Source of the DNA: Halorubrum sp. CBA1229
Lineage (GTDB): Archaea; Halobacteriota; Halobacteria; Halobacteriales; Haloferacaceae
Reading direction: 5' to 3'
Assembly (NCBI RefSeq): GCF_003721435.2
Contig: NZ_CP054585.1
Location: 682,001-746,000 of the forward strand
DNA length: 64,000 nt
Both the position numbers and the translations under genes were made by a program. The first letter of the stretch is position 1. Each line of letters starts with the position of its first letter. Positions 46,281-52,568 of this stretch are shown here, one piece after another. The notes beneath the pieces are model-generated. The model did no database searches and was not told the DNA's origin. It saw only the letters and a program-made list of their open reading frames with translations.

Positions 46281-47978
46281 TCAGTCCCGAGCCGACGGCG
46301 GGCGAGCGCCGTTTCGAGCGTCGCGATCGGCGCGTCCGTCTCCGTGATCGGCGCGTCCGGCTCCGTGATCGGCGCGTCCGGCTCCGTGATCGGCGCGTCC
46401 GTCTCTGGAGTCGACGCTCCGTGACCCGTCGCCACGCCGGGCGGCCGCGTCCCGCCCCTCTCTCACGTGGACGCGCAGTCGCACCGGGTGCGTCGGTCGC
46501 GTGTTCGCGCTCGCCCGCAGCGACAGCTCCGTCGTCACCGGTTCGAACCGCAGTCGCCGGAGCAGCGTCGCGGTCGCGAGCCGGAGCTCCTGTCTCGCGA
46601 AGCGCATCCCGATACAGTGGCGTGGGCCGCCGCCGAACGGGAAGTAGGCGTACTCGGGGCGGTCGCCGACCGCCGGGCCGGCGCCCTCGTCGCCGCGAAC
46701 GGTCTCAGTAGCGTCGGCCTCGTCGCTGTCACGCCCATCGCTGGCGGCCTCGCCGCCGCCGACCTCCCGGAGCCACCGCTCGGGGCGATACGTTTCGGGG
46801 TCGTCCCACCACCGCTCGTCGCGGTGGACCGCCCACGGCGAGAGCGTGAGCACGACGCCGGCCGGGACGCGGTAGCCGCCGAGGGTCACCGGCTCGGTCG
46901 GCTCTCTGAAGAAGGAGTGGACGGGCGGGTACAGCCGGAGCGCCTCGTCCACCGCCGCGGTCAGCGCCGGGCATTCCCGGACGTCCGCCGGCGTCGGGTC
47001 GGCGTCGAGCGCCGAGACCTCCGCGTGGACCCGCTCTTGGAACTCGGGGCGCCGGGCGAGACAGTAGAGCGTGTACGTCAGTCCGAGCGCGCTCGTCTCG
47101 TGGCCGGCGAACAGGAACGTCACCGCGTTGTCGACGAGCTGGTCGTCGTCGATCGCCCCGAGCTCCGCGGCCGCGACGAGCGTACCGAGGAGGTCGTCCG
47201 CGGCGCCCGGGTCCGCGGGCGGGCCGGCCGCGCGGCGCTCGGCGACGAGGTCGCGGACCGTCTCCCGGAGCGCTCCGAGCCGCCGCCGGTAGCGCCGGTT
47301 CGTCGGGAGCGGGAGCCACGCCGGGAGGAAGGAGGCGATCCGGCCCGTGTCGAACCGCTCCGTGACGCTCTCGGCGGCCACCCGGACGGTGTCGCGCTCG
47401 CGCTCGACGTCGCTCCCGAGCAGGCTCTCGGCGAGGACGGCGAACGCGTAGTCGGTCGCGGCGCCGTGGACGTCGACGACGTCGCCGTCGTCCCACGAGG
47501 CCGCCGTCCGGCGGGCGTGCTCGACCATCGCGTCCCCGTACGCGGCCACCCGTTCGCGGAAGAACGCCGACCGCATCGCCGTCCGCTGCTCGCGCCACGC
47601 CTCCCCCTCGGCGAGGAACAGCCCGTCACCGAGGAGGCCGCCGAGCCGCTCGCGGGGCATCTCTCCTTTCACGAACCGGTCGTGGTCCTCGACGAGGATC
47701 GACGCGATCGCGTCGGGATCGGTCACGAGGTAACTCTCCGTGCCGAACACGTTGTACCGGACGACGCCGCCGTGTTCGGCGGCCCGGCGTTCGTAGAACC
47801 CGAGCGCGTCGCGCGCGAGCTCGTGAACGTTTCCGAGGACCGGGAGCCCGCCGGGGTCGGGAGGCGCGACACCCGTTTCGGCGCCGTCGGTCGCGTCGGT
47901 ACTGTCCGAGGCGTCGCCGGGAGAAGTCGCATCGGTACCGTCCGAGACGTCGCCGGCGGATCGTGTCGTCTCGCCCAT
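46281..47978 (-). CDS. Cytochrome P450 with C-terminal seven-residue repeats
   Basis: 565 residues. P450 motifs: I-helix oxygen-binding FLFAGHETSALGL, ExxR in DEALRLYPPVHSFFREP, and the heme loop FPFGGGPRHCIG with the heme-ligand cysteine C455. It oxidises an unknown substrate; no ferredoxin or reductase is next to it. A long acidic insert (about 395-435) precedes the heme loop. After the last P450 helix the chain ends with four tandem copies of G-R-A-D-H-G-A-like units encoded by 21-base DNA repeats, an unusual tail. The ATG at 47978 was preferred over GTG 48017, which would lie in the putative operator. Confidence 0.9.
   Translation of the reverse strand: MGETTRSAGDVSDGTDATSPGDASDSTDATDGAETGVAPPDPGGLPVLGNVHELARDALGFYERRAAEHGGVVRYNVFGTESYLVTDPDAIASILVEDHDRFVKGEMPRERLGGLLGDGLFLAEGEAWREQRTAMRSAFFRERVAAYGDAMVEHARRTAASWDDGDVVDVHGAATDYAFAVLAESLLGSDVERERDTVRVAAESVTERFDTGRIASFLPAWLPLPTNRRYRRRLGALRETVRDLVAERRAAGPPADPGAADDLLGTLVAAAELGAIDDDQLVDNAVTFLFAGHETSALGLTYTLYCLARRPEFQERVHAEVSALDADPTPADVRECPALTAAVDEALRLYPPVHSFFREPTEPVTLGGYRVPAGVVLTLSPWAVHRDERWWDDPETYRPERWLREVGGGEAASDGRDSDEADATETVRGDEGAGPAVGDRPEYAYFPFGGGPRHCIGMRFARQELRLATATLLRRLRFEPVTTELSLRASANTRPTHPVRLRVHVREGRDAAARRGDGSRSVDSRDGRADHGAGRADHGAGRADHGDGRADRDARNGARPPSARD
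46325..46408 (-). repeat. Four tandem 21-base repeats encoding the P450 tail
   Basis: Units begin at 46325, 46346, 46367 and 46388 with a shared plus-strand core GATCGGCGCGTCCG. On the coding strand each unit gives one heptapeptide (Gly-Arg-Ala-Asp-His-Gly-Ala or variant). In frame, so variable copy number would only change tail length. Confidence 0.9.
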
Positions 47979-48014
47979 ACGGATCGATCGACGCGGCGAA
48001 CCGCTGACGTTTCG

Positions 48015-48030
48015 CACGGATTCATCCGTG
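48015..48030. promoter_or_regulatory. Perfect 16-base palindrome in the P450/HTH divergent promoter
   Basis: CACGGATTCATCCGTG (7-base arms, 2-base centre) directly abuts the shared TATA-type sequence at 48031-48042. For the regulator gene (+ strand) it lies upstream of the TATA box; for the P450 gene (- strand) it covers the region of the predicted transcription start. Such placement suits a single regulator that acts on both. Confidence 0.65.
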
Positions 48031-48042
48031 TATTTTTAAATG
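48031..48042. promoter_or_regulatory. Shared TATA element of the P450 and HTH genes
   Basis: TATTTTTAAATG, near-symmetric AT-rich stretch; about 35 bases before ATG 48072 on the plus strand, and on the minus strand upstream of the P450. Confidence 0.55.
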
Positions 48043-48071
48043 TCAAGCGGTCGGACGTCGTGATAACTACC

Positions 48072-48722
48072 ATGCGATACGTTCGCGTGCAGTTCGCGTT
48101 TCCGCCGTCGGTCCGGCATCCGATGCACGGGTACCTCGACGAGGGGGACGGCTGGCGGACAGAGCTGTTGACGTGGCGGCGGCTCCCCGACGAGACGCTC
48201 GTCACGCTGTTCCGCGTCCTCGCACCCCGAGAGCCGTATCTCGACCGGCTCCGGGAGGTCGACTCCATCGATCGGTTCGAGACGGCCCCGGGCGACGGCG
48301 CCTTCTACCTCAAGGCGTACGAACGGCTCGGTGGACCGCTGGAGGCGTTCCTCGGCGCGTTCGTCGACACGGAGTTCCTCTCCGTGCCGCCGATCGTGTA
48401 CCGGTCCGGGGGCCGACTGTCGTTCGGGCTGATCGGCCCGCCAGACCAACTGCGGGACGTCTTCGCCGCCGTGCCGGACCCGATCGACGTCGATATCGAC
48501 CGGATCGGCTCGTACGGCGGCGGTCGGCGGCTGGCCGGCGTCGAGCTCACGGAGCGCCAGCGAGAGGCCCTCCGCGCCGCGCGCCGCGTCGGGTACTACG
48601 ACGTGCCTCGGACGGGATCGGTGGCCGACGTCGCCGAGGCGCTCGGCTGTTCCTCGTCGACGGCGGGAGCGCACTTGCGCAAGGCCGAGGCGGCGCTGGT
48701 CGAGGCGCTACTCGACGGGTGA
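48072..48722 (+). CDS. Bat-type helix-turn-helix regulator (HTH-10 family)
   Basis: 216 residues. The C-terminus is the bacterio-opsin-activator HTH: LTERQREALRAARRVGYYDVPRTGSVADVAEALGCSSSTAGAHLRKAEAALVEALL. The N-terminal about 150 residues (MRYVRVQFAFPPSVRHPMHGYLDEGDGWRTELLTWRR...) form the sensory half usual in these proteins. Such factors are numerous in haloarchaea and mostly of unknown target. The gene is divergent from the P450 gene, with a palindrome in between that it may bind; this is a hypothesis. Confidence 0.9.
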   Translation: MRYVRVQFAFPPSVRHPMHGYLDEGDGWRTELLTWRRLPDETLVTLFRVLAPREPYLDRLREVDSIDRFETAPGDGAFYLKAYERLGGPLEAFLGAFVDTEFLSVPPIVYRSGGRLSFGLIGPPDQLRDVFAAVPDPIDVDIDRIGSYGGGRRLAGVELTERQREALRAARRVGYYDVPRTGSVADVAEALGCSSSTAGAHLRKAEAALVEALLDG

Positions 48723-51794: not shown

Positions 51795-52568
51795 TCAGTC
51801 GGCGGCCGACGCCTCGCCGGCCGACGGCTCCGGTGCCTCGGTGTCACCGATGATGGCGCGGCTGCGCAGGAGGATGAACCCGAACCCGACCTTCGCGGTC
51901 ACGTCGAGCACCATGAACAGGAGGGTCTCGACGCCGAGGCCGACGACGCCGGCGCCCTCGGTACCGACAATCCACAGGATCGGGTAGGCGGTCCAGAGGA
52001 CCAGCACCAGCGCGGTCAGCGTGTTGAACGTGCTCGCGACCTCGGGGCCGCGCTCCTTGGCCGCGCTACGGAGGCTCGTGGCGAGGAAGTACAGCACGAC
52101 GATCATGCAGATCGTGCTGAACAGCCACCAGGAGTACCGCGCGAGCGGCGTGTGCGAGAGCGCGCCGATGAGGCCGGTGACGATCATCAGCGCGTCGACG
52201 CCGATCAGCGTGCCGATGCTGACCCGGTCGACCTTCGCGAGCAGCGCGAGGTCGAGCAGGAGCAGCGGCGTGGTGAACAGCCAGTCGGCGTACCGGGCGT
52301 AGTAGATGTCGAGCACTTCGCCCGCGACTTCGACTTCGGTCAGGCCGATGCCGAAGAACATCGACAGGTACGCGGCCGACGCGATGCCCGGCACGAGGAT
52401 CGTGATCGCGTAGTACTCACGGGCCTCCTTGTCCGTGACCCCCCAACCTTTCACGATGAAGTAGAAGGTCCCGATGAGCATGAATAACGTCCCGATACCT
52501 AGCCACAGCGTTTCGGGCCGACCGTCCCCGAGGACGTCGAACCCTGCCTGCAGTACTGTCGGATCCAT
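51795..52568 (-). CDS. bop: Archaerhodopsin (light-driven outward proton pump)
   Basis: 257-residue seven-helix retinal protein nearly identical in style to Halorubrum archaerhodopsins. The proton path is complete: R92, D95 (acceptor) and D106 (donor) in [21 protein letters not shown]125 in GVDALMIV, E204 and E214 (release group), D222 and the retinal Schiff-base K226 in [17 protein letters not shown]. The start ATG at 52568 gives [10 protein letters not shown], the short propeptide-like N-terminus expected, with Q7 possibly the mature end. A TTG two codons upstream is not used. Candidate activator site lies at about -42 to -56. No retinal-synthesis, brp or bat gene is present within the window. 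Confidence 0.97.

Follow-up and report, generated by a model that had tools for sequence, protein, structure and literature searches.

A conserved palindrome between divergent cytochrome P450 and HVO_0513_N/HTH_10 regulator genes of Halorubrum as a probable shared upstream activating site

In the window, i.e. the whole 64-kb stretch of DNA that was analysed, a cytochrome P450 gene and a regulator gene are transcribed divergently, and the region between them carries a palindrome flanked by promoter-like elements. The features are, in window positions:

46281..47978, minus strand: cytochrome P450 gene, 565 aa, haem motif FGGGPRHCIG (PF00067, 244 bits), start ATG 47978
47987..47988, minus strand: AT dinucleotide at -10/-9 of the P450 ATG, candidate -10 WW element (A/T at -10 in 23/31 remote loci)
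48004..48007, no strand assigned: CTGA block at -29..-26 of the P450 (columns -11/-10 invariant in 22 orthologs, columns -9/-8 at 0.91)
48010..48014, minus strand: CGAAA, BRE-like element of the P450 promoter, -36..-32 from the ATG, at the A/T peak at -34/-33 (a CGAAA motif is described in passages of PMC4983044)
48011..48040, plus strand: whole conserved element TTCG-CACGGATTCATCCGTG-TA-TTTTTAAA, in the register of the family-wide motif (PWM score 32.2)
48015..48030, no strand assigned: dyad CACGGATTCATCCGTG, arms CACGGAT and ATCCGTG about TC, candidate operator core, conserved in 22/22 ortholog promoters
48033..48040, plus strand: regulator TATA box TTTTTAAA, assigned from its sequence and from the A/T-rich zone in remote regulators
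48072..48722, plus strand: regulator gene, 216 aa, HVO_0513_N plus C-terminal HTH_10 (PF24278, PF04967), ATG 48072, stop 48722

The regulator, which could alternatively start from an in-frame GTG at 48060, carries HVO_0513_N as its N-terminal domain (60.5 bits versus 29.8, residues 16-148) and HTH_10 at residues 159-210 (63 bits versus a cut-off of 23.1). The domain profile search detected no PAS or GAF domain and, besides these two domains, only a sub-threshold Sigma70_r4_2. The protein is a member of the HTH_10 and HVO_0513_N families and not Bat proper; the term "Bat-type" used in a preliminary description of this DNA is correct for the C-terminal HTH_10 domain and fails for the rest, HVO_0513_N being present and PAS/GAF absent. 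An AlphaFold2 model (28 sequences) had a mean pLDDT of 85.6, and in it we read the N-terminal alpha/beta part as two ACT- or ferredoxin-like units, a domain that may bind a ligand. When the model was used in a fold search, the N-terminal part matched Ta1207 (TM 0.40) and the HTH matched sigma region 4, both only weakly. On the other side of the promoter region, the P450 ends in a low-complexity tail with GRADHGA repeats beyond the P450 domain (46281-46420, minus strand), and the ORF neighbouring the P450 opens with a PITEPDA repeat. A bacteriorhodopsin-like (bop) gene lies at 51795-52568 on the minus strand, about 3.1 kb from the regulator; a link to bop as a general feature of the pair was discarded, a bop homologue being nearby in only 1 (L091) of the best 80 P450 loci described below. 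In a search of open-access papers aimed at the pair and at the regulator family, we found no publication describing this P450/regulator pair and no paper on 'HVO_0513'.

Read on the plus strand, CACGGATTCATCCGTG has perfect 7-bp arms and a TC centre, and TATTTTTAAATG at 48031-48042 abuts its end, which confirms the palindrome and adjacent stretch first described at 48015-48042. The palindrome had also been said to cover the P450 start region; it lies instead 37-52 nt upstream of the conserved ATG 47978, at a nearly invariant distance, except if GTG 48017 were used. No second copy of the dyad was detected in the window with up to 3 mismatches, the matches on both strands being one place. Since 21 perfect dyads with 7-bp arms and a 2-nt gap occur in the 64-kb window, the dyad is unremarkable when its conservation is set aside. 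Searching for the 16-mer elsewhere in the genome, as had been suggested, we obtained a single exact match of CACGGATNNATCCGTG in 3.58 Mb and 13 places with at most 2 mismatches. A wider regulon in the same genome was rejected: the conserved spacing to a clear TATA is absent from all 12 other places. The nearest to that spacing (L011) has TTTCTAA directly after the site, and around the sole place with 1 mismatch (L002) there is no recognisable promoter.

We analyzed the conservation of the pair in the genus, taken as 52 genomes, mainly Halorubrum. A close ortholog of the regulator occurred in 19/52 genomes and the P450 ortholog in those same 19, the two genes being divergent neighbours in 19/19. 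Together with two pairs of another genus in the family (170 genomes searched) and L098, this gave 22 ortholog promoters, and in 22/22 the dyad occupied the same place, with CG and A invariant in the left arm and TCCG in the right arm. Mean pairwise identity reached 0.96 in the 8 inner arm columns, whereas the left and right flanks averaged 0.53 and 0.33, respectively. Among 17 distinct 16-mers, 101/119 arm positions matched, compared with 94.8 ± 2.5 in shuffles (244 of 20,000 shuffles reached the observed value); this excess is modest evidence for symmetry, as the statistic ignores descent. Left of the dyad, the CTGA block and a TT were likewise conserved among orthologs, and the CTGA block was not seen in the remote families. 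Two orthologs, L028 and L031, have a weak TATA only, 3' of the dyad. A genus-wide search with CACGGANNNNTCCGTGNNTTTTNAA at up to 2 mismatches, a pattern that misses 8/19 pair promoters, matched in 12/52 genomes, 11 of the matches being pair promoters and one (G036:C8) lying elsewhere; the reversed-pattern control for this search is an unfair null for a dyad. At one locus (G046:C85:22895-24318; L062, L063) the P450 was matched in two pieces and may be broken, and regulator and operator are still kept there (L022). Another (L069; G062:C1:2058377-2059420) holds a 74%-identical P450 stretch from which residues 1-150 are missing, and gave no regulator match.

To look beyond close relatives, GTDB species genomes (84,980 species) were scanned with a P450 alignment and the best 80 loci were retained. 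A divergent HTH_10 regulator passed our filter in 40 of them, comprising 16 repeats of the above orthologs, 1 further ortholog (L098) and 23 remote pairs, in which the P450 is 37-50% identical. De novo motif search in the upstream regions of the 23 remote regulators yielded TTCnGtCGgA-N(12)-TTTATA in 23/23, scoring 582 versus 222-247 in 8 shuffled sets, and its register matches TT, CG, A and TATA of the window. In the TATA zone, at least 5/6 bases were A/T upstream of 22/23 remote regulators. The right half of the motif varied across the remote pairs (TCCG-like, CTAG, CTGAAC), CTAG-centred right halves occurring in some of them and not in the window element. The 23 remote pairs served to train a PWM, and their own scores are therefore not independent, in contrast to those of the 22 orthologs, of 11 nuoCD pairs and of 40 loci in which no divergent partner was detected; its background was drawn from the same loci with true elements included, which makes the tail fractions conservative. 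Two remote pairs, L147 and L161, scored low (7.4 and 10.7, respectively).

A related element precedes 11/11 pairs of regulator and nuoCD formed by paralogs in the genus, where a divergent CAT stands at the same distance as the P450 start. Of six other family genes that are not beside a P450 match, four carry a related element and two (L139:5857 and L156) do not. In the nuoCD-type loci (L033-L043, at ~1498 in locus orientation) the HVO_0513_N/HTH_10 paralog is divergent to an NADH dehydrogenase (nuoCD-like) gene and has its own conserved element, TTCTGCCGG..CGGGTATTTATAA; only in L033, L037 and L041 was this nuoCD-like gene itself read, and the printed frame of L035 did not show nuoCD. The genus also contains a second, diverged P450/regulator pair (L064, G005:C3:29720-31563, and L115), with a P450 45-48% identical to the first and the operator GTTCTGTCGGACAAGTCC ahead of a T-run.

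The other 40 of the best 80 loci had no divergent regulator passing the filter, and 10 of these carried the element at a score above 14. One of the ten, L132, does have a regulator, which leaves nine P450s that keep the element without a detected divergent regulator, indicating that the element belongs to the P450 too. L139, one of the nine, has a family gene farther away; within 3.5 kb of the other eight we found no family regulator. Six P450s without adjacent regulator, mostly from Haloarcula (L123, L126, L128, L130, L131, L151), share a conserved upstream stretch, GAGTGAGAGGGCCTTTGTACG, which may be another control site.

The distance between the P450 ATG (the first in-frame ATG in range) and the T-run of the regulator was then measured in 48 element-bearing loci. 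It was 57 nt in 37 loci, 56-58 nt in 45 and 60-61 nt in 3. Given that the stretch from -32 to -12 of the P450 had only 30% pairwise identity among 31 remote loci, this fixed spacing does not reflect recent common ancestry of the sequence. These 31 loci are those scoring above 14, namely 21/23 remote pairs (L147 and L161 dropped) and 10/40 of the others. Relative to the P450 ATG, A/T was found in 27 of the 31 at -34, 25 at -33, 24 at -27, 20 at -26, 22 at -11 and 23 at -10, on a background of 36%. A TATA-like stretch (at least 5/6 A/T between -34 and -22) was present in 1/31 remote and 0/17 ortholog P450 promoters with the element; the same criterion was satisfied by 12/21 P450 promoters without the element and by 22/23 remote regulators. 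The set without element comprised the 22 loci scoring at most 6, one of which (L164) gave no ATG, and loci scoring 6-14 were in neither set. Passages of PMC4983044 describe CGAAA (BRE), TTWT (TATA) and WW at -10 as haloarchaeal promoter elements and report that 72% of the mapped protein-coding transcripts of Haloferax volcanii are leaderless. The BRE-like AA at -34/-33 and the WW at -11/-10 would fit a leaderless, TATA-less P450 transcript. On the regulator side, the start lies 25-30 nt from its own TATA in 20/23 remote loci, as in leaderless genes. In Halorubrum the distance between regulator ATG and regulator TATA is mostly 35-37 nt and reaches 79 nt in some orthologs, showing that the regulator start is less fixed than the P450 start.

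We consider it probable that the dyad serves the neighbouring HVO_0513_N/HTH_10 regulator as its operator and forms a single upstream activating site for two back-to-back promoters, through which the P450 would be switched on. This model is built on conservation, fixed spacing, gene co-occurrence and the missing TATA box, each of which is read directly from the DNA. The regulator probably binds the dyad, presumably as a dimer. On its own side the dyad stands directly upstream of a good TATA box, and the regulator would thereby control its own gene. On the P450 side the dyad is at -52..-37, directly upstream of the BRE-like CGAAA and a promoter without TATA, where the bound regulator could recruit TFB/TBP and turn the P450 on; the dyad would then stand in for the P450 TATA box, with the transcript most likely beginning at the ATG. 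Less in keeping with this model are the variable regulator start in Halorubrum, the weak TATA of L028 and L031, the low scores of L147 and L161 and the modest excess of matching arm positions. The preliminary description had proposed a palindromic operator of the divergent pair, to be abandoned if no palindrome were conserved beside orthologous pairs, and the element was found in 22/22 ortholog and 23/23 remote promoters, as is expected of an operator shared by a divergent pair. Its further proposals, an upstream-activating-site placement for the regulator and an autoregulated switch of the P450 by its neighbour, gain support as well: autoregulation is likely because the conserved operator adjoins the regulator TATA in activator position.

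The T-run is the sole TATA-like stretch upstream of the P450, and if it acted as a bidirectional TATA the dyad would lie between the P450 TATA and the P450 start, i.e. in a repressor position, so that the bound regulator would block TFB or RNA polymerase and repress the P450, while perhaps activating or limiting its own gene. Passages of PMC4158304 on TrmB-family regulators agree with such a geometry, describing repression from sites downstream of BRE/TATA and activation from upstream sites. Repression would, however, require the 5' leader to have the same length throughout, the ATG being 56-58 nt away from the T-run in 45/48 loci, and would leave the A/T peaks at -34/-33 and -11/-10 unexplained. 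We regard it as rather unlikely and rank it second because of the fixed 57-nt spacing and the missing TATA at -27.

It is also conceivable, if improbable, that the element is a core-promoter site or the site of another factor, such as a global HTH_10 paralogue or another regulator, and not of the neighbour. The nine P450s that keep it without a detected divergent regulator speak for this explanation. So do the partial correlations (28/56 entries used). Between operator and recognition helix, with the N-terminal domain controlled for, the value was 0.23 (reached in 0/5000 permutations, which ignore phylogeny), no stronger than the 0.37 between operator and N-terminal domain with the helix controlled for; co-inheritance could therefore account for the match to the neighbour, and a recognition-helix code is not claimed. 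Against another factor, the element follows the regulator family into the nuoCD pairs and most of the other family genes, and the search with CACGGANNNNTCCGTGNNTTTTNAA at up to 2 mismatches did not find it in the 33 genus genomes without the pair. That the dyad arose by chance, or forms an RNA hairpin within a 5' leader, we hold to be very improbable: similar dyads are frequent in the window, but the positional conservation across genera contradicts chance, and the dyad lies outside the regulator transcript on either start-site model and outside the P450 transcript if the latter is leaderless.

If the shared activating site is correct, it may be an instance of a more general arrangement. We tentatively suggest, while thinking it somewhat less probable than the site itself, that HVO_0513_N/HTH_10 proteins across Halobacteria share one rigid promoter device: a dyad with a nearly fixed left half (CGgA) and a regulator-dependent right half (TCCG, CTAG, CTGAAC, CGGG), an ordinary TATA promoter on the regulator side, and a replaced TATA on the side of a leaderless target whose ATG is 57 nt from the opposite TATA. 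Such a rule, if true, would allow targets to be predicted from sequence alone for many archaeal regulators that are uncharacterised. Archaeal activators with a defined site and geometry are few, and many HTH_10 genes of haloarchaeal genomes have no known target. A conserved operator whose distance to a TATA-less and probably leaderless promoter is fixed provides a simple, testable rule that ties a regulator family to its targets; it opens a route to studying how an activator might replace a TATA box, and it puts a haloarchaeal P450 under a named, predicted local regulator.

The window P450 and CYP174A1 of Halobacterium salinarum are both haloarchaeal P450s. The criterion for the CYP174A subfamily is >55% identity to CYP174A1. 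Deletion of CYP174A1 raised bacterioruberin and abolished the purple membrane (PMC6212597), and the passages of that paper name no neighbouring regulator or operator. TrmB-family regulators also use palindromic sites, and whether they activate or repress depends on the position of the site relative to BRE/TATA (passages of PMC4158304), but their protein family is unrelated to the window regulator. Bat shares the HTH_10 DNA-binding domain with the window regulator. Unlike the latter it has PAS/GAF domains, and the operator sequences differ. For bop of Halobacterium salinarum, part of a review places the activating site of Bat 5' to the gene and reports the promoter as being without a TFB recognition element. 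NarO and DmsR resemble the window regulator in being HTH_10 proteins without PAS/GAF, and passages of PMC11218638 and PMC10062603 describe them as activators of respiration genes. According to the same passages, a 12-bp semi-palindrome, CGAAYATDKTYG, is located 66-79 nt before the ATG in three denitrification promoters of Haloferax mediterranei, and the nor and nos promoters require it to be fully active. The CGAAYATDKTYG system differs in site sequence and regulon from the window, where a single divergent pair has one site common to its two promoters.
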